The notes under the pieces are model-generated. The model saw nothing but the letters and a program-made list of their open reading frames with translations, ran no database searches and was not told where the DNA came from. A stretch of 64,000 bases of DNA from positions 1 through 64,000 of the forward strand of contig JAFEDK010000002.1 in NCBI GenBank assembly GCA_018241665.1, written 5' to 3'. This document shows, one piece after another, positions 7,509 to 33,719 of this stretch. The position numbers were made by a program, and so were the translations under genes. How positions within the stretch are numbered: position 1 is the first letter of the stretch; each line of letters starts with the position of its first letter. Origin of the DNA: Pseudomonadota bacterium (GTDB lineage Bacteria; Pseudomonadota; Gammaproteobacteria; Burkholderiales; Rhodocyclaceae).

Positions 7509-8567
7509 TCACCTTCCGGAGGTGATCGGTTGCGCCAGCAGTTCCTTCAGATGGCCGTCCACTTCGGTGATGCAGTTGGCGTCGGTGCCGAACAGGGCGA
7601 GGTGGCCGTCGATGCTGTTGAGCGGCCGGAACTCGCTGCCGGGGATGAGCTGCTGCTCGGCCAGGCAATCGGTGGGCGGGAAGAACATGTCGTGGCTGAT
7701 CGGCATCACGAAGGTTTTGGCCTTGATACGGCCAAGGGCTTCGGCGAGATTGCCGCCGGTGTGGCGGCTCACGTCGCCGCGCTGCCACTTCCAGGCCATG
7801 CACAGCAGGTTATTCGGGTCCATCGGGCCGAAATAGCCGTTCATGAACTGCTCGACGAAGCTCTGCATGGAATCGAAGCCGAGTACCCGGTGGCGGCCGC
7901 AGCGGAAGAACTCGGTGCTCCAGCCCATCACTGTCCATAGCTTGGCGTGCCGGCGAAGGCCGGCGGCTACGTCGGCTGGAGAGGCATAGGTGCCGTCGCG
8001 AAAGCCGGGATCGGTGGTGATGGCTTCCATCAGCGTGTCGGCAAACACGAAGTCGTGCTCGGTGTTGCGGGCCGTGCCGGCAATCGGCGCGGCGCGTTCG
8101 ACCATGTCGGGGTAGCGCACCGCCCATTCGTAGGTCTGCTGGGCGCCCATCGAACCACCGACCACCAGCGCCAGCCGCTCAATGCCGAAATGCTGGGTGA
8201 GCAGCCGGTGCTGGGCACGCACGTCGTCGCCGATGCGCACGCGGGGGAAGCGCGGCCCGGCGATGTCGGCCGGCGCGTTGCTGGGCGACAGGGACAGGCC
8301 GCTGCCGATCTGATTGACGACGATGATGAAGTAGCGCTCGGGGTCGAGGGCGTGGCCGGGACCGATGTAGACCTGCTCCATGATCTTGCTGGTGCCGGAA
8401 TACCAGGTCGGCACCAGGATGGCGTTGTCCCGCGCGTCGTTGAGGCGGCCGTGGGTGGCCACGGCGAGCGTGCAGTCCTCGAGCACGCCGCCTTCTTCGA
8501 GTTCGAGGCGGCCGATGTCGATGAGCTTGAAGGGGCCGTGGTTTTCCTGGGTGTAATAGGTGTTCAT
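7509..8567 (-). CDS. MetX-like alpha/beta hydrolase (homoserine acetyltransferase superfamily)
   Basis: A protein of 352 residues with the homoserine O-acetyltransferase fold. Visible are the nucleophile elbow G-G-S-M-G (Ser139), the acid region ISHDMFFPPTD and the histidine in DGHLALFG near the C-terminus. The N-terminal region lacks the conserved substrate segments of true MetX, so it is more likely a hydrolase or acyltransferase of this superfamily acting on another ester. It is the second gene of an operon with the Baeyer-Villiger-type monooxygenase, 33 bases downstream of it. Both genes have the same GGAGACAAG-type leader before the ATG. A BVMO makes esters or lactones and a hydrolase opens them, so sequential action is plausible. 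Confidence 0.75.
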   Translation of the reverse strand: MNTYYTQENHGPFKLIDIGRLELEEGGVLEDCTLAVATHGRLNDARDNAILVPTWYSGTSKIMEQVYIGPGHALDPERYFIIVVNQIGSGLSLSPSNAPADIAGPRFPRVRIGDDVRAQHRLLTQHFGIERLALVVGGSMGAQQTYEWAVRYPDMVERAAPIAGTARNTEHDFVFADTLMEAITTDPGFRDGTYASPADVAAGLRRHAKLWTVMGWSTEFFRCGRHRVLGFDSMQSFVEQFMNGYFGPMDPNNLLCMAWKWQRGDVSRHTGGNLAEALGRIKAKTFVMPISHDMFFPPTDCLAEQQLIPGSEFRPLNSIDGHLALFGTDANCITEVDGHLKELLAQPITSGR

Positions 8568-11747: not shown

Positions 11748-14531
11748 ATGGCATTGGCTATTTCGAGGTTGCCTGATCAAAGCGGGAGTGGCGGGCCAAT
11801 TGGCCCGTGGACTTTCTCCCCGTGGGCGCTGGGGATTCTGGCGGGGTTTTCCGCGTTGAATATGTCTCCCGCCCTGGCTGCAGAACCGCCCGCATCGCTG
11901 GGCAGCCTGCAGGCGGAAAATGCCCAGTTGCGTGCGGAGGTCGAGGCCTTGAAGAAGCGGCTTGGCGAGACGACTCCGCCGCAGCCCGCTCAGCCGCCGG
12001 CGGCCCCGGCATTTTCCGCGGAGCAGCCGGAGGCGCCGGGCGTGGCGCAGCCGTCGCTGGAGAGCGTGCGCGTCTCATCACGGAGAACGACGCCCCTCGC
12101 CACCTTGAAGGAAGTGCCGCAGTCCATCTCGGTGGTCTCCGGCGAGGAGTTGAGCAGGCTTGAAACCAACAGCTTTCGCAACATCCTCACGCGTATCGGC
12201 AATGTCGGCGCCACCTACACCAATCCGCAGGCCGGCAGCCTGATGATCCGGGGTGTCGGGTGGGCAAGCGGCGCAGGCCCGCTGGATCCGAGCGTCGGCG
12301 TGACGGTCGATGGGGTCAGCTACGGCATCAGTGGCCTGGGCGCCGCGTTCAACCATATCGACGTGGATACCGTCAGCGTGGCGCGTGGCCCCCAGGGCAC
12401 GCTGGGGGGAAAGAACTCGAGCATGGGCGAGATCGTCATCCGCAATAACGTGCCGAGTTTTACACCGGAAGCGAGTGCCTCGATCACCTACGGCAAGCTC
12501 AACACGGTGAGCACCCGGGCCACTGTTGGCGGCCCCCTCATCGACGGCTTGCTGGCGTGGCGTGCGAGCTTCTCCCGCGAGCAGGCGGACGGCCCGTACA
12601 AGAACCTCAACGATCCCAACTACAGCTACAAGAATACCGATCGCACCTATGCGCGGGCGCAGTTCCTGCTGACGCCCTCGAAAGATTTCTCGGCGCTGCT
12701 GAACCTCGATTTCTCGCCGGTCAGCAAGGAGTTCTCGGACAACTACGTGAATTTCCCGCGGGCGACTCCGGGCTATTACGACTCGCGCAATGCTAGCGGC
12801 GGGTTGATTGCGGTGGAGCAGCGCAATGAGCCGACGGGCCGGCTCGCCCGTCCATGGTTTGCGCGGGAGGCCAGCTACAGCACGGCCGATTACACCTCCA
12901 GTCAGATCAACCGGCTCAGTCAGAATCCGAACAATTATGGCTCCAAAGGCGGTTCGGCCACGCTGAACTGGAACCTCGGCGGCTTTACCCTCACTTCGAT
13001 CAGCGCCTATCGTGATTTCTATTTCGACTCGGGCGGCGGGCCGATTTCGGTATTCGATATCGACCGTTCGCCTTCCACCGGCCATGTCGAATACCAGCAG
13101 GTCAGCCAGGAACTGCGGCTCAGCTCGCCGAAAGGCGGGGCGGTGGATTACCAGGCCGGTCTCTACTATTTCAACAGCAAGATGCCCGAGCGCTGGACGA
13201 CTGCACGCTATGGTTCGGACGCGGGCGCCTACTACGCGAGCTATCAGCAGTATGCGCGGCTGGATGCGGATCATGCGGGGCGGGCTCTGATGCAGGATTC
13301 GATCAGTCGCCTGTTCACAAAGACGCGGGACCAGATCGACAACACCAGCTTCGCGATCTACGGAAATGCCGACTGGCACCTCAGCGATGCACTGAAACTC
13401 AATACGGGCCTGCGCCTGACCCAGGAGAACCGTCACACCACGTCGAGCCGGCTGGTGGAAGATCAGGGCTACGCGGCGGACCTGAACCCGCTGGCCATCA
13501 ACAACGTGCGCCTTGCGGCGGCCGGCGTCACGCAGACGCAACTGGACGATTCCCTTGCCCGCAAATATTTCGGTGCGTCGTCCTATGGCGCGCTGAGCGC
13601 CGCGCAGAAGCAGCAGATCACCGATGCCCGCGCAATCCGCCGTGCGCGTCTCGGCAGCCTGTATGCGGAGACCGAGGCCGAGTCTTTTGAGCAACTCCTT
13701 CCCACGTTTACCGTCAGCCCCAGCTACCGCTTCAATGACCAATACACCGGCTATGTTTCGTGGCAGCACGGGGAAAAGGCCGGCATCTCGCAGATTGTCG
13801 GCGCATCGGCAAGCGGCGGCAGTTCTGCACCGGTAAAGGCCGAGAAGAGCAATGCCTACGAGCTGGGCCTCAAGGCCAGCCTGCCGCAACATGACCTGGC
13901 CTTTGGCGCGGCCGTGTTCCTGCAGGACATCAGGAACTACATCCAGCCTATGTACTTCTATGATGCGGTTCAGACGGCCCTGAACAATGACGGGAACCTG
14001 GCCTATACGGCGGGCCTCGGGAACGTGCCGAAAGTGCGGACCAAGGGCCTTGAGCTGGACGTGAGCTATTCGGGCTTCCGCTACACGACCCTGCGCTTTG
14101 CTGGCGCCTATACCGATGCGCGCTACCGGGAATTCCCGACCCTGGCCAAGCCTGCGGAGCTGGGCGGCACCGCGACGCCTTATTACGATGCATCGGGAAT
14201 GACGCTTCCGGGATCGGCCAAATACAGCTTCAACCTGTCCGTCGATTACGCGCGCCCGGTATTGAACGACAAGCTGTTCCATTCGACGGTGAATTACCGC
14301 TATACGAGCAGCTTCAACAACGATCCTTCCCTGTCGCGCTATTCCGAGGTCGATGCCTTCGGCGTGACGGATCTCGCCGTTGGCCTCGGGCGCAGGGACC
14401 GCCTGGTGGATGTCAATCTGATCGTGAAGAACGTGTTCAATACGAACTCGGGCTTTCTCGGAACGTGGAACAACTACTATCCCAGTCTGCCCCGCTGGAT
14501 AGGGATCAGCATCAGCACGCGTCTGCAGTAG
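11748..14531 (+). CDS. TonB-dependent outer membrane receptor with N-terminal coiled coil
   Basis: A receptor of 927 residues. A signal peptide (about 1-45, ending A-L-A-A) is followed by a short heptad segment (52-73, SLQAENAQLRAEVEALKKRL) and a Pro/Ala-rich linker to about 103. The plug domain (about 105-240) has the features of the family: VPQSISVVSGEEL, the M-I-R-G box and RGPQGTLGGKNSSMG. A 22-strand barrel fills the rest. TonB receptors import scarce ligands such as metal chelates; the ligand cannot be read from sequence. The start at 11748 follows AAAGGGAA. The gene precedes mosBA on the same strand, with a 362-base gap and a hairpin between. Uptake of a molybdate or other metal chelate is a hypothesis from position only. 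Confidence 0.85.
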   Translation: MALAISRLPDQSGSGGPIGPWTFSPWALGILAGFSALNMSPALAAEPPASLGSLQAENAQLRAEVEALKKRLGETTPPQPAQPPAAPAFSAEQPEAPGVAQPSLESVRVSSRRTTPLATLKEVPQSISVVSGEELSRLETNSFRNILTRIGNVGATYTNPQAGSLMIRGVGWASGAGPLDPSVGVTVDGVSYGISGLGAAFNHIDVDTVSVARGPQGTLGGKNSSMGEIVIRNNVPSFTPEASASITYGKLNTVSTRATVGGPLIDGLLAWRASFSREQADGPYKNLNDPNYSYKNTDRTYARAQFLLTPSKDFSALLNLDFSPVSKEFSDNYVNFPRATPGYYDSRNASGGLIAVEQRNEPTGRLARPWFAREASYSTADYTSSQINRLSQNPNNYGSKGGSATLNWNLGGFTLTSISAYRDFYFDSGGGPISVFDIDRSPSTGHVEYQQVSQELRLSSPKGGAVDYQAGLYYFNSKMPERWTTARYGSDAGAYYASYQQYARLDADHAGRALMQDSISRLFTKTRDQIDNTSFAIYGNADWHLSDALKLNTGLRLTQENRHTTSSRLVEDQGYAADLNPLAINNVRLAAAGVTQTQLDDSLARKYFGASSYGALSAAQKQQITDARAIRRARLGSLYAETEAESFEQLLPTFTVSPSYRFNDQYTGYVSWQHGEKAGISQIVGASASGGSSAPVKAEKSNAYELGLKASLPQHDLAFGAAVFLQDIRNYIQPMYFYDAVQTALNNDGNLAYTAGLGNVPKVRTKGLELDVSYSGFRYTTLRFAGAYTDARYREFPTLAKPAELGGTATPYYDASGMTLPGSAKYSFNLSVDYARPVLNDKLFHSTVNYRYTSSFNNDPSLSRYSEVDAFGVTDLAVGLGRRDRLVDVNLIVKNVFNTNSGFLGTWNNYYPSLPRWIGISISTRLQ

Positions 14532-15717: not shown

Positions 15718-16551
15718 ATGGCTGAAACCACCAACACCACCAAACATCTGGCCTCGCCGCTGGCGCGTCAGACCCTCCTCGACGGCGATCTCGTCCGTCC
15801 CGTTGCGGGCGTTCGCCCAATCCGCCTGCTGCCGTGGCTGCAGGTCGTCAAGATCGGCGGCCGGGCGATCATGGACCGCGGCGCCGAGGCGATCCTGCCG
15901 ATCGTCGAGGAACTGCGCAAGGTGCTGCCCGAGCACCGCCTGCTGATCCTCACCGGCGCAGGCATCCGCGCCCGCCACCTGTACGGCGTGGGCCTCGATC
16001 TGGGCCTGCCGGTCGGCTCCCTGGCGCCGCTGGCGGCCAGCGAGGCGGGGCAGAACGGTCATATCCTGGCATCGCTGCTGGCGCCGGAAGGGGTGTCCTA
16101 CGTGGAGCATCCGACCATCGCGAGCCAACTGGCAATCCACTTGGCGGCTGCCCGTGCAGTGGTTGGCAGCGCCTTCCCTCCGTATCACCACCACGAGTTT
16201 CCGGGGTCGCGCATTCCGGTGCACCGTGCCGACACTGGCGCCTTTTTGCTGGCCGACGCACTCGGCGCGGCGGGGCTGACCATTGTCGAGGACGTGGATG
16301 GCGTTTACTCCGCCGATCCGAAGGGGGCCGATGGGGCGCAGGCGCAACTGCTGCGTGAAACCAGTGCCGAGGAACTCGCCAAGCAGGACGGCACGCTACC
16401 CTTCGACCGCGCGCTGCTCGAGGTGATGGCCAACGCCCGTCACCTGGAACGCGTGCAGGTCGTCAATGGCATGGTGCCGGGCCGCATCACCGCCGCGCTG
16501 CGCGGCGAGCACGTCGGGACGATCGTCCATACCGGCCTGCGTCCGCTGTAA
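15718..16551 (+). CDS. mosA: molybdenum storage protein subunit alpha
   Basis: A protein of 277 residues, paralogous to mosB and matching the alpha subunit of Azotobacter MoSto: [46 protein letters not shown] and [10 protein letters not shown]. The His-rich H-H-H-E segment is one of the molybdate-cluster binding features of the alpha subunit. It is translated 11 bases after mosB and ends in an intrinsic hairpin, so mosBA is a two-gene operon. Stored molybdenum would supply cofactor synthesis for nitrate reductase or nitrogenase; those genes are outside the window. Confidence 0.93.
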
Positions 16552-16583: not shown

Positions 16584-16639
16584 GCGTTCCCTCTTGCATC
16601 TCTTGTTGGGGGCGAAGACTGTGGGGGGCGACGAAAACT

Positions 16640-16707
16640 GTGGGGGCGAATTCATTCGCCCTGACGCTGGTTAAACAAGCTCCGTGGGCGAATGAATTCG
16701 CCCCCAC
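16640..16707. repeat. REP-like inverted pair (BIME-type), locus 1
   Basis: Two 22-base elements, 16640-16661 and 16686-16707, are perfect inverted copies of each other with a 24-base spacer. Each contains its own small palindrome; the shared core is GGGCGAATGAATTCGCCC. The same element occurs at 26424-26488, 28658-28679 and 31516-31582, always between genes. The arrangement matches bacterial REP/BIME elements. No REP-associated transposase (RAYT) is in the window. Confidence 0.8.
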
Positions 16708-16770
16708 AGGGCAGCCCCCACAGGGCAACCCCCACAGGGCAACCCCCACAGGGCAACCCCCACAGGGCAA
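16701..16770. repeat. minisatellite of 14-bp units attached to REP locus 1
   Basis: Starting from the cccccac end of the right REP arm, the unit agggcaacccccac is repeated four times (16708-16763; the first copy has one change) plus a partial fifth copy ending at 16770. It fills the gap between mosA and the Usp gene on the side of the Usp stop. Such perfect short repeats are expected to vary in number between strains. Confidence 0.85.
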
Positions 16771-16800: not shown

Positions 16801-17274
16801 TTAGCGGTCTATCGGCACGAGGATGACCGGCACGTCGGCTTTCATCGTGACCTTGTGGGCGACGGAGCCGAGGATGAGTTCGCCGATGGCGCTGTGGCCG
16901 CGGGAGCCCATCACGATCACGTCTGCCAGTACATGCTTGGCCATGTCCAGGATGCAGCGGGCGGGGTCGCCCTCCACTGCGCGGATGCTCGCCAGCACGT
17001 CTTCCGTGTTCATCTCCGGGTGGGCTTCGCTGAAGACCTCGATGCGCTTGCGCAGCAGGTCTTCGTCCTTGCTCTGGCCGGCGGCGCGCATGGCGTCGAA
17101 TTTCTCCTCGGACATGAATTCCATGTAGGGCAGGCCGGTGGCCGGCAGGGAAACGGTCATCGCGTGGAGCTTTGCCTCGAACTTCGCCGCCAGTCCGACG
17201 GCGTGGCGGAAGACTGCCGGGGAGCGCGGGGTCAGGTCCGACGCGTAGAGGATCGATTTGATCTGGTAAGCCAT
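16801..17274 (-). CDS. universal stress protein (UspA family)
   Basis: A single-domain Usp of 157 residues. The N-terminus KSILYASDLTPRS is the first strand with the conserved Asp. The C-terminal G-S-R-G-H-x(9)-G-S-V-A-H-K-V is the ATP-binding signature G-2x-G-9x-G(S/T), so this is probably an ATP-binding member. Usp proteins help survival under energy or oxygen stress. It is monocistronic, convergent with mosA, with the REP/minisatellite between the two stops. Confidence 0.88.
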   Translation of the reverse strand: MAYQIKSILYASDLTPRSPAVFRHAVGLAAKFEAKLHAMTVSLPATGLPYMEFMSEEKFDAMRAAGQSKDEDLLRKRIEVFSEAHPEMNTEDVLASIRAVEGDPARCILDMAKHVLADVIVMGSRGHSAIGELILGSVAHKVTMKADVPVILVPIDR

Positions 17275-26423: not shown

Positions 26424-26488
26424 GCGGGCGAATTCATTCGCCCGCAGTCGCTTATTCGAAGTCCGTGGGCGAATGAATTTGCCCCTAC
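26424..26488. repeat. REP-like inverted pair, locus 2
   Basis: Elements at 26424-26445 (a perfect small palindrome around CGAATTCATTCG) and 26465-26488 are inverted relatives of the pair at 16640-16707, with small differences. The pair lies between the DUF4015 gene and the NamZ fusion gene, directly against the start codon of the latter. Confidence 0.75.
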
Positions 26489-28657: not shown

Positions 28658-28679
28658 GGGGGCGAATCCATTCGCCCCC
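28658..28679. repeat. REP-like palindrome, locus 3 (single)
   Basis: GGGGGCGAAT..ATTCGCCCCC, a 22-base palindrome centred on a two-base change from the core of the other loci. It lies between the small membrane protein gene and the deacetylase gene. Only one copy is present here, without inverted mate or minisatellite. Confidence 0.7.
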
Positions 28680-28758
28680 ATGTGGGACAGGGATTTCTTC
28701 TTTCAGGATAGTCCGATGAAGGCCGGGCTGGGGCGGCCTGTCAAATCCGGCATGGGGC

Positions 28759-29181
28759 TTACACGATCAGCACGCCCGCCGCCTTCAGGGCGATGAAGAG
28801 CACGGCGCCGATCAGCAGGTTCTTGAAGCTCACGTAGCAGATCATGTCCATCACGGTCGCGCGGCGGTACAGGCGGCCCCACCAGGGGCCTTCCTTCACG
28901 TAGGGCTTGGCGTCGAGGCGGACCAGCACCTCGAAGACGCTCCAGCCGAACCACCAGCCGATGATGGCGCCGGCTTCCAGGCGGCCGAGCGCGGCCATCA
29001 CCCAGGCCAGCGTGGCCGCGATGGCCAGCGCGAAGCCGGCCCCCTGGATCGCCTTGCGGGCTGGCTGGCCCTTGCCGGCCCACGGCCACAGGTGGTCGCG
29101 GATTTCGGCGACGAGCCAGGGCAAGCCGTGGGCTTCGCCGTAGGCGGGCTGGCGCAGTTCGTTGCGGTCGGCGATGGTCAT
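28759..29181 (-). CDS. small membrane protein of the nos cluster
   Basis: A protein of 140 residues with about three hydrophobic segments: ALAIAATLAWVMAALG, AGAIIGWWFGWSVFEVLV and the C-terminal LLIGAVLFIALKAAGVLIV. Its ATG overlaps the nosR stop by 4 bases, so it is translationally coupled to nosR. I do not know a named family for it. The coupling suggests an accessory role in electron supply to, or assembly of, nitrous oxide reductase. Confidence 0.7.
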   Translation of the reverse strand: MTIADRNELRQPAYGEAHGLPWLVAEIRDHLWPWAGKGQPARKAIQGAGFALAIAATLAWVMAALGRLEAGAIIGWWFGWSVFEVLVRLDAKPYVKEGPWWGRLYRRATVMDMICYVSFKNLLIGAVLFIALKAAGVLIV

Positions 29182-31358
29182 GCCGTGGCTCCTTTCTTCT
29201 GCGGTTCGGCCGGCACTTGATGGATGGGGATGAAGTAGCCCTTGCCGTTGATCGGTGTGAGCGGCTGGCCGGCCTTGGTGCGGCGCTTGCGTTCCTGGGC
29301 CAGCGGCGGGCAGGCGTGGTCGTCGTAGTAGAGCACCATGCAGTCCAGGCACAGCATGCATTCACGTTGGTCGATATTGCCCTTGGCGTCGATGGCCTGG
29401 GAGCCGCAGCCCTTGGCGCAGGCCTTGCACGAGGTGCATTCGTCCTTGCGCTTGAGGCCGAACCAGCGGAAGGTGGTCGGCATCGCCAGCGAGGCGCCGA
29501 GGGGGCACAGGTACTTGCAGAACGGCCGCTCGGTGAAGATCGACAGGCCCAGCAGACCGGCCGCGAACAGGCTGTAGGGCCAGCTGCGGTTGGTGATGCC
29601 GACCAGAAAGGTGGTCTTGAAGGGTTCCACCTCGGCCAGCTTCTCGGCCAGGCCCATGCTGAAGAAGGACACCGCCAGCAGGCCGAAGAAGACCACGTAC
29701 TTCACCCACTTGAGCTTGTCGTGCAGCGGCTTGGGCAACTGGAACTGGAAGCGCTTGAGACCGACCAGCCGGCCGAGGCGGAACAGCAGTTCTGACAGGG
29801 AGCCGAAGGGGCACAGCCAGCCACAGAAGAAGCCGCGTCCCCAGATGAAGACGGTGACGATGATGAAGACCCAGAACACGAAGATCAGCGGGTCGGACAG
29901 GAACAGCTCCCACTTCCACTGGAACAGCAGGCTGTGGAACCAGGTAAGCACCTGGGTGATGGACGGCTGGGCCATGGCCGAGAAGCCGACGAAGCCGATG
30001 GAGATCACCCAGCCGGTGTACTTGAAGGCATTGACCGGCCAGCGGCGCTGGCGGTTGGCACGTCGGACCAGCTTGTCGCGGCTGGCGTAGGCGGCGGAGA
30101 TGGCGAGCAGGAAGACGACGAAGCCGGCGATCTCGACGGCACGTTCCTTCCACACCTTGAGCCAGGTCGGATCGGGCTTGATCACGACCGGGCGGCCGCC
30201 TTCCAGGTATTTGTCGGCCAGCCAGTATTCCTTGTCGAAGTTGGCGAAGGTCTTGGCGGCGGTTTCCTTGTCGATCTTGTTGCCGAGGAAGACCAGCCGC
30301 CACGGATAGGCGGCGGAGAAGCCCTTGCCGCGGATGATGAAGATCGCCGATTCGCTGAAGGCCGGCGCACCGGCGGCGGCGACGCTCCACAGGTTGACGT
30401 AGTCCAGATCGCGGAAGGTGAAGGCGTCCTTGTCCTGGCGCACCTGTACGCGGTCGTAGATTCCGCCGCGTACGAAGCCGGAGCCCTTGAAGGAGTCCAT
30501 GCCGGCGGGCTTGATGATGAAGATGGCGTGTTCGCCGTCCTTCAGGCGGCTCATCAGGCTGGCGTAGCCGTCCTTGCCGAGGATGGCCTGGCCGATGGCG
30601 GGCTGGTTGAGGTAGCCGAACCACAGGTCCATGTAGGGGCCATCGCCCTTCAGGCCGACTTCCTCGGGCTTTACGGTGAGGCGCTGCACGCTGCCGTCGG
30701 CGACCAGTTCGCTCCACGACGGCGTGCCCGTGGCGGGCGGGAACTTGGCCTGCGGGCGGATCACCGGCTTGAGGATGCCGACCTGTTTGGCAACCGTGGT
30801 GCCGGAGGTCATCATCACCTGGTTCTGCGCGATGACGGTGACGGTGGCGCCGGTGATCGCGTCGAGGCCGATGATGTTCTCGTCGGGGCGCGATCTGCCG
30901 ATCTCGATGTTGTCGCCGACGAACTTGCCCAGATACTGATTGTTGAACTTGATCAGCAGGGATTCGGGAATGCCGAGCAGCAGGATCGGCTCTGAGTGCT
31001 TGAGGATCTTCACGCCGACGAACTTGCCGGCGGTGTCCATGCCGATCAGCGTTACCACCGGCTTGCCGGAGTAGGCCGGTGTGTCGGTGATGTCGGTGGA
31101 CAGCATCACATAGCCAAGGAGCTTTTTCTGGCCGCCTTCGTCCTTGTAGGCTTCGACGAAGGGGGGCTGGCCCTTGCGTTCCGAGAAGCTGGTGGCGCCG
31201 GGCATGACCTCGGCGCAGGGGGCGTAGTCGCACATTTTCGGCGACGTGCCGAGTTCGGGGGGGAGCTTGACCTCGTAGGTGTCGGCATGGACCGCGCTGG
31301 CAATGACGAGTCCGGCCAGGGCGGGGAGAAAGCGGCGCAGGGCGCGCAGGGCAAACAT
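29178..31358 (-). CDS. nosR: NosR, membrane flavoprotein/iron-sulphur protein for N2O respiration
   Basis: A protein of 726 residues, the usual NosR length. A signal peptide ending V-H-A is followed by a periplasmic FMN-binding domain with D-A-I-T-G-A-T (FMN attached through Thr). Next come several membrane helices with two C-x-x-x-C-P motifs (FCGWLCPFG and FCKYLCPLG) and a cytoplasmic ferredoxin domain with C-x-x-C-x-x-C-x-x-x-C (CTSCKACAKGC and CMLCLDCM). NosR passes electrons to NosZ or maintains its CuZ site and is needed for nos expression. It lies downstream of nosZ, separated by a terminator and a repeat region, so it is transcribed from its own promoter. Confidence 0.95.
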   Translation of the reverse strand: MFALRALRRFLPALAGLVIASAVHADTYEVKLPPELGTSPKMCDYAPCAEVMPGATSFSERKGQPPFVEAYKDEGGQKKLLGYVMLSTDITDTPAYSGKPVVTLIGMDTAGKFVGVKILKHSEPILLLGIPESLLIKFNNQYLGKFVGDNIEIGRSRPDENIIGLDAITGATVTVIAQNQVMMTSGTTVAKQVGILKPVIRPQAKFPPATGTPSWSELVADGSVQRLTVKPEEVGLKGDGPYMDLWFGYLNQPAIGQAILGKDGYASLMSRLKDGEHAIFIIKPAGMDSFKGSGFVRGGIYDRVQVRQDKDAFTFRDLDYVNLWSVAAAGAPAFSESAIFIIRGKGFSAAYPWRLVFLGNKIDKETAAKTFANFDKEYWLADKYLEGGRPVVIKPDPTWLKVWKERAVEIAGFVVFLLAISAAYASRDKLVRRANRQRRWPVNAFKYTGWVISIGFVGFSAMAQPSITQVLTWFHSLLFQWKWELFLSDPLIFVFWVFIIVTVFIWGRGFFCGWLCPFGSLSELLFRLGRLVGLKRFQFQLPKPLHDKLKWVKYVVFFGLLAVSFFSMGLAEKLAEVEPFKTTFLVGITNRSWPYSLFAAGLLGLSIFTERPFCKYLCPLGASLAMPTTFRWFGLKRKDECTSCKACAKGCGSQAIDAKGNIDQRECMLCLDCMVLYYDDHACPPLAQERKRRTKAGQPLTPINGKGYFIPIHQVPAEPQKKGATA

Positions 31359-31515
31359 CGGTGACTCCGCTCGATCAGGATGTCCGCCGATTGTGAGGAT
31401 GTGTGGCGGCGAGCGCCTTAAGCTGAGTCAATTTGCCCTGGACGGCGGGCCGCGCAGGGGTCTTGGCGGGTGGGGCGGATTGCAGCTGAGGTGATGGCCG
31501 GTGAAGTGATGGCCT

Positions 31516-31582
31516 GTGGGGGCGAATTCATTCGACCGCGGAGATGGAGCGACGCACTGCGGGCGAATGAATTCGCCCCCAC
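31516..31582. repeat. REP-like inverted pair, locus 4
   Basis: Elements at 31516-31534 and 31561-31582 are inverted copies of the REP core, with a spacer of about 26 bases. The right element is identical over 22 bases to the right element of locus 1. The left element is cut short after CATTCG. It lies between the nosZ terminator and nosR. Confidence 0.8.
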
Positions 31583-31687
31583 AAGGAGCAGCCCCCACAA
31601 GGAGCAGCCCCCACAAGGAGCAGCCCCCACAAGGAGCAGCCCCCACAAGGAGCAGCCCCCACAAGGAGCAGCCCCCACAAGGAGCAG
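31583..31687. repeat. minisatellite of 16-bp units attached to REP locus 4
   Basis: Six perfect copies of aaggagcagcccccac (31583-31678) plus a partial seventh to 31687 follow directly from the cccccac end of the right REP arm. The unit differs from the 14-bp unit at locus 1 but shares the last seven bases, so both arrays appear to have grown from the REP end. It lies in the nosZ-nosR gap, downstream of the nosZ terminator. Confidence 0.9.
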
Positions 31688-31707
31688 CCTGGATTGCACT
31701 TCGAGGC

Positions 31708-31736
31708 AAAAAAAGGGGAGACGCGGACGTCTCCCC
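31708..31736 (-). terminator. intrinsic terminator of nosZ
   Basis: On the minus strand GGGGAGACG and CGTCTCCCC make a perfect 9-bp stem with a 4-base loop, followed by seven T residues (complement of 31708-31714). It lies 39 bases after the nosZ stop. It would end most nosZ transcripts before the repeats and nosR. Confidence 0.92.
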
Positions 31737-31775
31737 AAGTTGCTTCTTCGATAAGGAACGGTTTGCTGGAGGGCC

Positions 31776-33719
31776 TTACTTCTCCACGATCATGCGGCTA
31801 CGCATTTCGAGGTGCAGGGCGTGGCAGAAGTTCGTGCAGTAGCACCAGTACACGCCCGGCTTGTCGGCCTTGAAGGTGACGGACTTGGTTTCCAGCGGGT
31901 TCACGATGAAGTTGATGTCGTACTTCGGAATCGCGAAGCCGTGGGTCAAGTCTTCGACCTTGTCCAGGTTGGTGAGGATGAGGGTGACTTCGTCGCCCTT
32001 CTTGACGGTGAATTCCGGCAGGCTGAAGGCCGGTGCCTGGGACACCATCTTGACCGTGACCTTGTTGCCCTTGCGCTCGACGCCGGACTCCTTCGGGTCC
32101 TTCACGGCGTTGGGGAACTCGTCCAGGTTGTAGACCTGACGGGTCTTGATCAGCTCGCGCTTGACGATGATGGAGTCGTGGGGTTCGGACCACACGGCGT
32201 GGTCGGCCACCACCTTCATCTTGTCACCGCTGATGTCGATGAGTTGGGCGGTTTCCGGGTGCAGCGGGCCGACGGGCAGGAAGCGATCCTTGGAGAACTT
32301 GTTGTCGGACAGGAAGTACTTGCCGTCCGGCGCCTTGGTCTCGCCCATCGAGGTGAAGCCGTGGCCGGGCTGGTAATGCACGTCCACGCGGTCGAGTACG
32401 ACCTTGGCGTTCTTGTCGCCCTTGAAGGACTGGATCGCCGCTTCCACGTTCCATTTCACGATCTGGCTGTCGAGGAACAGGGTGGTGTAGGCGTTGCCCT
32501 TGTTGTCGAAGCCGGTGTGCAGGGGGCCGAGGCCGATTTCCGGTTCGGCAACCACCGCCTCGCGGGCGTCCTTCAGGTCGCCGTCGAACCACTTCAGCAC
32601 GAGGTCGAGCTGGATGACGGTGGCCGTCGGCGACAGCTTGCCGGAACACACGAAGTACTTGCCGTCCGGGCTGGCGTTGACGCCGTGGGGGTTCTTCGGG
32701 ATCGGCACGTAGCAGGTGAGGGCGGTCTTCGGGTCCTGGTTGGCGGCCTTGGTGCCGTCCACCACGGGCACCTTGGAGCTGCCGTAGGTCCGGGTCTTGC
32801 CGGCCTTGACTGCTTCTTCGATACGGGCGATGTTGAAGAACAGGCAGGCATCGCGCTCGGAGGACATCATGTCCTGGTAGTGGGCGCCCATCTCGGTGTT
32901 GTACTGGTTGGTGGCGGCCAGCTTGCCGTCGTAGGAGGTGGCGACGAGGTCGCAGTTGCCGTCGATCAGCATCTGCCAGCGCACTTCCATCGACTCCGAA
33001 TCCACACAGGTGAACAGGGAGTGGTACTTGGTCGGGTCGTTCATGTCGTTGCCGTCATTGGGCAACGGAATGGAGAACTCGGCGCCGCAGAACACGCGGG
33101 TGGTGTGGTTGATCTTCTCGTCCACCGGGTCGCGCTTGTCCGGGAAGGTACCGTGGAAGCCCTGGATGTTCGGCAGCTCGATGATCTTGTCGGTTTCCAT
33201 CGTATCCATGCGGATACGGGCCAGACGGCTGTGGATCTTGTCGTTCACGAAGATGTACTTGCTGTCGTACATGCCGTCCGTGTAGGACTGGTGAACGTGG
33301 TGGGTGTCGCCGGTGTGGTACTTGAGGCTGCCGTCCGGCTTGGTGCCGATGATGGCCTTGGATTCGTTGGTGATGCCCCAGCCGATCAGGCAGTCCATGT
33401 TGAAGACCGGGATGCGCTTGAACAGGCGGCCGGAGGGCATGCCGTAGATGCGCACTTCGCCGGAGTGGCCGCCACTGGAGAAGGAATAGTATTCGTCGAG
33501 CTGGCCGGGGGGCACTTCGTACTTGCCGAATTCACCTGCGCCATGGGCGGCCGGGGCTGCAGCCGGCGTGCCGGCGGGGGCAGCGGCTTCCTGCTTGCAG
33601 GCGGACAAGCCGACGGACAGGCCGGCACCGGCCAGGCCGGCGAGGGCGGCGGAGTTCAGGAACCTGCGGCGCGCCGGAACGGGGTTGGCGTCGTCGTGCT
33701 TGATGTCTTCGATACTCAT
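31776..33719 (-). CDS. nosZ: nitrous oxide reductase, clade I (Tat-exported)
   Basis: Reduces N2O to N2 in the periplasm, the last step of denitrification. The 647 residues begin with a Tat signal (R17-R-R-F-L-N-S), which marks clade I. The seven-bladed propeller carries CuZ histidines, including DTHHVH. The C-terminal cupredoxin domain has the CuA motif C628-T-N-F-C632-H-A-L-H636-L-E-M639. The residue that is Trp in the best-studied enzymes (C-S-W-F-C) is Asn here; it contributes only a backbone ligand. It has its own terminator and an FNR-type box 157 bases upstream of the ATG. nosDFYL, needed for CuZ assembly, are not in the window. Confidence 0.97.
   Translation of the reverse strand: MSIEDIKHDDANPVPARRRFLNSAALAGLAGAGLSVGLSACKQEAAAPAGTPAAAPAAHGAGEFGKYEVPPGQLDEYYSFSSGGHSGEVRIYGMPSGRLFKRIPVFNMDCLIGWGITNESKAIIGTKPDGSLKYHTGDTHHVHQSYTDGMYDSKYIFVNDKIHSRLARIRMDTMETDKIIELPNIQGFHGTFPDKRDPVDEKINHTTRVFCGAEFSIPLPNDGNDMNDPTKYHSLFTCVDSESMEVRWQMLIDGNCDLVATSYDGKLAATNQYNTEMGAHYQDMMSSERDACLFFNIARIEEAVKAGKTRTYGSSKVPVVDGTKAANQDPKTALTCYVPIPKNPHGVNASPDGKYFVCSGKLSPTATVIQLDLVLKWFDGDLKDAREAVVAEPEIGLGPLHTGFDNKGNAYTTLFLDSQIVKWNVEAAIQSFKGDKNAKVVLDRVDVHYQPGHGFTSMGETKAPDGKYFLSDNKFSKDRFLPVGPLHPETAQLIDISGDKMKVVADHAVWSEPHDSIIVKRELIKTRQVYNLDEFPNAVKDPKESGVERKGNKVTVKMVSQAPAFSLPEFTVKKGDEVTLILTNLDKVEDLTHGFAIPKYDINFIVNPLETKSVTFKADKPGVYWCYCTNFCHALHLEMRSRMIVEK

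Follow-up and report, generated by a model that had tools for sequence, protein, structure and literature searches.

The window analysed here, a stretch of 64,000 nucleotides, belongs to a genome of the genus Zoogloea (5.43 Mb in 55 contigs) and carries a palindrome at four sites (16644 and 16686; 26426 and 26467; 28660; 31520 and 31561), where a search of both strands allowing at most three mismatches returned 14 matches, compared with a mean of 0.14 and a maximum of 2 in shuffled sequence. These sites comprise seven palindromes, four of them exact on either strand and three with one mismatch on the better strand. The original prediction had placed a 22-base element at the four sites; the sites were recovered, whereas the element is not a lone 22-mer, being arranged as an inverted pair (REPIN) at three of the four. 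In the first REPIN, the heads GTGGGGG and CCCCCAC face outward, with A outside both. Two of the sites bear tandem arrays that had been described as perfect and as starting from the CCCCCAC end (Table 1). Both do start there; the 16-bp array is perfect, whereas the 14-bp array is slightly imperfect, with G ending its first spacer and A ending the rest. The strict array pattern was also matched at C22:16605-16649, among the degenerate head copies to the left of the first REPIN.

Table 1. Repeat features of the window and the evidence for each
Feature	Position	Strand	Description and evidence
REPIN	16640..16707	.	Inverted REPs 16640-16661 and 16686-16707; sequence, pattern, hairpin -32.7 kcal/mol
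Tandem array, unit CCCCCACAGGGCAA (14 bp)	16701..16770	+	5.0 copies, 98% match; from right head; TRF, sequence
Two degenerate additional head copies (GTTGGGGGCGA, GTGGGGGGCGA)	16605..16639	-	Outside left head; sequence
Degenerate REPIN without array	26424..26488	.	Left head altered; right head CCCCTAC, then G
Lone degenerate palindrome without array	28658..28681	.	Pattern match
Weak 15-bp repeat, two units, 88%	31487..31518	-	Adjoins left head; TRF; counted as two-unit array
REPIN	31516..31582	.	REPs 31516-31537 and 31561-31582; pattern, hairpin -31.8 kcal/mol
Tandem array, unit GCCCCCACAAGGAGCA (16 bp)	31575..31689	+	7.2 copies, 100% match; from right head; TRF

Both array sites fall between open reading frames (ORFs). 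The 14-bp array lies between the 3′ ends of the convergent ORFs 15718-16551 (+) and 16801-17274 (-), the latter of which we take to be universal-stress-protein-like, and its REPIN is missing in three aligned relatives (G013, G014, and the sister species G006), where the spacer is unalignable. The 16-bp array lies between the minus-strand ORFs 31776-33719 and 29178-31358, presumably resembling NosZ and NosR, respectively. Together with its REPIN, it occupies the spacer 31359-31775 between these same-strand ORFs, so that array length might influence a denitrification operon. The bare CCCCCAC motif is not overrepresented in the window (20 occurrences against 18 expected), and the signal resides in its spacing and anchoring rather than its count.

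The palindrome GGGCGAATTCATTCGCCC is preceded by GTGG, which is the arrangement characteristic of REPs, a short palindrome after GTRG, and either GTGG or GTAG forms the majority of sampled heads. Many copies had been anticipated, and a genome-wide search for the 22-mer (GGGCGAATGAATTCGCCC with the CCCCCAC end, at most two mismatches) returned 406 + 393 = 799 matches, in which a palindrome with heads at both sides may be counted twice, compared with 0 for the backwards control. The main sample covered 1.247 Mb, comprising the window, 20 stretches around listed REPs, and much of contigs C51 and C54; it is non-random, since REPs guided part of the choice and the two contigs were already known to carry arrays. 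This sample holds 279 REPs, with 115 adjacent pairs called, 13 of which represent the same palindrome on both strands. Among the remaining 102 pairs, 96 are inverted, with heads outward and the REPs 22-25 nt apart (23 nt in 84 pairs), and such inverted doublets at fixed spacing match the REPIN anatomy of PMC3116915. The hairpin of a lone REP amounts to -7.7 kcal/mol.

The RAYT gene that had been proposed as a search target is present. The genome contains one PF01797 match, at C3:133924-134235 (31.5 bits, cut-off 23), and this Y1 gene also matches NF047646 (REP-associated tyrosine transposase; 148 bits, cut-off 80) and PDB 4er8 (TnpArep; E 1.6e-5), with REPs flanking it on both sides (C3:133792-133813 and 134415-134436). 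The REPIN population is presumably mobilised by this single RAYT. At L031 1429-2124 (C3 at about 134 kb), the gene is adjoined by a REPIN carrying a 15-bp array, which the open frame of the gene crosses as PPQHQ repeats upstream of the likely start. Tandem clusters whose unit holds a whole REP or REPIN also exist in the genome (C3, spacing about 115 bp); clusters of REP matches with a period of 113-116 bp are located near the gene (C3:129473-130070 and 137325-137685).

Arrays attached to REP ends are also found beyond the window. Screening the genome for REP ends with two further CCCCCAC copies behind them gave 44 overlapping matches, with 0 in the control; these represent 28 distinct entries, 27 of them with an intact REP core, and with one locus duplicated, 26 loci remain. 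As expected from the two window arrays, units differ between loci and are mostly locus-specific, for example CCCCCACAGCTTTA, CCCCCACAGTGCTCT, CCCCCACAAGG, and CCCCCACAGGTGAGGCAG. In the 34 exact arrays, which were retained from 49 rows by requiring at least two exact units, a shared depth of at least 4, and an uncut end, the unit measures 9-18 bp (13-16 bp in 29) and consists of 4-11 bp of REP end, usually 7-8 bp, joined to 2-10 bp of local DNA. Wherever at least two exact units are present, the REP part is at least 4 bp, that is, the GTGG tetranucleotide, and the five dropped rows with a depth of 1-3 all contain fewer than two exact units. Many REPs carry units with several differing spacers in succession.

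The association is equally apparent when minisatellites are collected by TRF from the 1.247-Mb sample, where 38 of 68 merged loci have a period of 8-30, at least 2.5 copies, and a score of at least 60. Of these, 29 adjoin a REP head and 2 begin within 13 bp of one, and among those scoring at least 75 all 22 adjoin a head. When one test was applied to both sides in the first sample, with 158 heads and 158 tails, arrays were found at 15 heads and at no tail (7 of 790 random places), in agreement with the proposed confinement to the cccccac side, and a single strict pattern found 0 arrays running into a REP tail. The idea that arrays grow from the same end of the element is correct insofar as they are headed by CCCCCAC, but the arrays are not one-sided, because a REPIN carries two outward cccccac ends. 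Both heads can bear arrays, with units that are unrelated and opposite in direction, as in the REPIN at L075, 4010, whose two ends carry CCCACAGCAAGTAG and TCCACAGTTTTCC. The outward flanks of REPINs showed no likeness beyond that of shuffled pairs (0.306 versus 0.300 for 95 pairs).

In 13 of 39 arrays, AG forms the end of the spacer, directly ahead of the C-run, compared with a background of 9.8% (p = 5e-5). Beyond the regular part of these 39 arrays, the head is conserved at 71% and the spacer at 53% (p = 0.007). The outer array ends were examined for junction homology, and the leftover part-units there are spread over the full unit length. An assembly N-run falls within the head array at L069, about 11870-12060, with GGGACCAGCC flanking it on both sides, so the assembly may miss longer arrays.

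The new element of the finding is that arrays hinge on the base outside the head. The 279 REPs were reduced to 272 by removing repeated or N-containing flanks and to 254 by requiring a CAC/TAC head, and the base outside these 254 ends is A in 129, G in 107, and C and T in 9 each. Arrays, called at two or more units with at most 15% mismatch, occur at 39 of the 129 ends followed by A and at 0 of the 125 followed by G, C, or T (A versus G, p = 3.7e-12). Perfect 22-mers give the same picture (36/81 A-ends versus 0/57 others), and A stands outside the head at each of the 26 loci found genome-wide, 13 of which lie on contigs beyond the sample. The second base outside the head is irrelevant (arrays at 32/105 with G and 6/21 with A). 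A requirement for C plus T at this position was considered and rejected, since in this genome T alone matters.

Two properties of the element itself also influence array formation. Among heads followed by A, arrays are far commoner at GTGG than at GTAG (38/109 versus 1/19; p = 0.007), and an intact palindrome bears them much more frequently than a mismatched one (37/93 versus 2/35; p = 8e-5), while the rates for unpaired and paired perfect REPs are similar (5/10 and 31/71). Slippage and incomplete REP mobilisation, the two mechanisms named in the original prediction, continue to be an apt pair, with a part for the mobilising enzyme favoured both by the strict dependence on A and by the requirement that the palindrome be intact. 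The restriction to A suggests a contribution of the element's own enzyme to array formation.

The array layout, W'-(X'T GTGGGGG)n-CGAATTC, is readable as copies of (GTGGGGG X'T) placed exactly at T|GTGG. The best explanation, for which confidence and doubt are evenly balanced, is that RAYT-assisted slippage at T|GTGG seeds minisatellites at REPIN heads, and we infer a RAYT step that includes nicking and rejoining. RAYT would bind the intact REP and nick at T|GTGG, after which synthesis would carry the freed 3′ end a few bases into the head, and the end would slip back and recopy the flank. The extended strand would then be rejoined to the GTGG end by RAYT, which needs a 3′ T, such that each cycle would insert a single unit (GTGG(GGG) + flank + T), restoring the site, while subsequent growth or loss of the array may be ordinary slippage. 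HUH transposases of the RAYT group act on the lagging-strand template, yet no replication-strand bias was detected (21:18 versus 50:41), which speaks against this model.

Plain replication slippage, in which a polymerase stalled by the stem would let the new strand move back by about 14 nt and duplicate head and flank, with RAYT having merely placed the element, is unlikely though far from negligible. Array starts coincide with the foot of a strong hairpin, C-rich sequence is frequent at the ends of array units, and one REPIN common to this genome and the sister species, with flanks approximately 95% identical, bears a 16-bp array shared by both, at 4 units here versus 15 in G006, in which no Y1 gene was detected. 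The hairpin-induced replication slippage presented in the available part of PMC4134008 is comparable in that a hairpin makes the polymerase slip, but slippage itself leaves the dependence on the outside base unexplained. The hairpin alone does not suffice here, since none of the 125 sampled ends at which a base other than A follows the hairpin carries an array, and other GC-rich hairpin ends bear arrays in only 4 of 674 cases, each of just two 9-bp units. Furthermore, 200 kb of E. coli K-12 contained arrays at 0 of 26 REP heads, 20 of which have A outside.

It is improbable that the duplication was made once, by repeated or faulty strand transfer during insertion of the REPIN beside T, and that the array has been passive since then. 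Arrays do track perfect, and presumably young, palindromes, and at L069 7577-7808 the array spacer is missing from the empty site of the sister species, both of which such an origin would explain. However, the successive differing spacers seen at many REPs are difficult to reconcile with a single event, and the REPINs C51a 216909 and 220943, common with G006, carry arrays here only, although the element is decayed in G006 and the arrays may possibly have been lost there. These two array-free counterparts, together with the differing units at the two ends of one REPIN, bear out the predicted independence of the arrays. Among 35 comparable REP clusters, G006 has a recognisable core at 17 and none at 18, and most intergenic spacers are too diverged from the sister species for the inserted piece to be delimited. 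Very improbable indeed is the reverse order, in which CTGTGG-containing minisatellites came first and RAYT inserted REPINs into them: although the REPIN C51a 243383 sits precisely at a CY|GTGG site that is element-free in the sister species, pre-existing arrays as insertion targets were rejected on account of the oppositely directed, unrelated arrays that flank a single REPIN, and in addition the minisatellites farther off heads are few and imperfect (7/38, scores 60-73), and the sequence that units typically have in common with the REP extends beyond GTGG.

Returning to RAYT-assisted slippage, the need for T fits the cutting behaviour of RAYTs, as the E. coli and S. maltophilia enzymes cleave single-stranded REPs at CT, whereas the Marinomonas RAYT cuts at CT and CA, with the GTAG motif thought to steer the choice, according to the available part of PMC8266576. 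The exact placement of the REPIN C51a 243383 at a CY|GTGG site, empty in the sister species, also speaks for this explanation. In the relative G003, the REP palindrome differs (GGGCGACTGAAGTCGCCC, with a GTAG head), and A is outside 44 of 46 ends, equivalent to T 5′ of GTAG at 44 of 46 REPs, as would be expected if T is the signal in the genus. Duplications were found at 11 of the 44 A-ends with a wider start window than in the main sample, several of them being a 12-13 bp half-REP. In G003, G005, G011, G012, and G017, arrays of 11-15 bp consist mainly of half-REP (e.g., AAGTCGCCCCTAC), with little or no flank. The outward base of GTGG heads in the present genome is G about as often as A, while that of GTAG heads in G003 is nearly always A, a contrast that agrees with the proposal that the third guide base pairs with the cutting site.

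Several observations argue against the participation of RAYT. The base before T is free, though the two best-studied RAYTs do not cut at TT in the available part of PMC8266576; the same source describes a GTGG guide redirecting the Marinomonas RAYT to CC, which predicts cutting at the G-ends that are array-free here. GTAG A-ends rarely bear arrays in this genome, yet do so at an appreciable rate in G003. In G006, arrays occur at 3 of 38 A-ends and at 1 of 37 G-ends, the unit of the latter being chiefly REP arm. The strict pattern detected arrays in 7 of 23 Zoogloea genomes, with REP families having different heads escaping it, and PF01797, which is not RAYT-specific, was matched in 4 of these 7 and in 5 of the 16 array-free genomes, indicating that gene presence is no predictor of arrays at the genome level. 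The array-bearing G005, G006, and G012 gave no PF01797 match, and it is G006 that holds the longest common array. TRF applied to 45 Y1-transposase loci (15 from Zoogloea and 30 from the wider family, about 3 kb each) identified gene-side head arrays, judged by eye, in L221 alone, which is another Zoogloea. A broader proposal, offered tentatively and with doubt somewhat outweighing belief, is that RAYT, a domesticated transposase, writes minisatellites: it would nick T|GTRG at intact REPs, cycles of nicking, extension, slipping, and rejoining would add units and rebuild the site, and the strong minisatellites of this lineage would be mostly a by-product.

Related systems have been reported, as far as the available parts of the cited papers extend. 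Tandem repeats of whole REPINs are already known (PMC3116915, PMC3733652, PMC8049555). The REPIN/RAYT system of PMC3116915 shares with the present one REPs paired in inverted orientation with outward heads, copy numbers in the hundreds, a REP-flanked RAYT gene, and larger tandem REPIN clusters, but its published units are whole REPs or REPINs with flanks, at least 70 bp in size, whereas the units here are REP end plus local DNA and hold 4-11 of the 22 bp. GTAG-tagged REP clusters in Pseudomonas, Thauera, and others, those of Thauera having been discovered via a tandem-repeat database, likewise contain tandem REPs with flanking DNA; in the part of PMC3733652 available, they are described as whole singletons or dimers, with neither a site-specific spacer joined to a REP end nor a next-base rule. 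The minisatellite of a Porphyromonas gingivalis MITE (PMC4596501) is also linked to a bacterial mini-transposon, although it lies inside the element, whereas those considered here are outside and vary with the site. No description of head-seeded minisatellites was found in the accessible portions of the open-licence literature searched. REPs, REPINs, and RAYTs are already known, and the arrays apparently seeded from REP heads, as judged from sequence, would be the new part.

The birth of a minisatellite is seldom observed because grown arrays alone get noticed. The present genome offers dozens of apparently independent births, all at defined sites, and a natural control, the same hairpin with another next base, sets them apart from slippage at a bare hairpin. 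Should RAYT prove responsible, these arrays would preserve, in a form readable from genomes, a trace of what the enzyme does in living cells, and the role of RAYT would be testable in a wastewater bacterium.

Two further repeats lie close to REPs. At L069, about 7720-7800, a 7-bp AAAGCCC array of about nine copies is located about 25-35 bp beyond a REP head, on its outer side; at this position a single GAAGCCC stands in the sister species. At C51, about 301720-301830 (C51a), a GGGGCT hexamer array lies directly outside a REPIN with a GTAG head.
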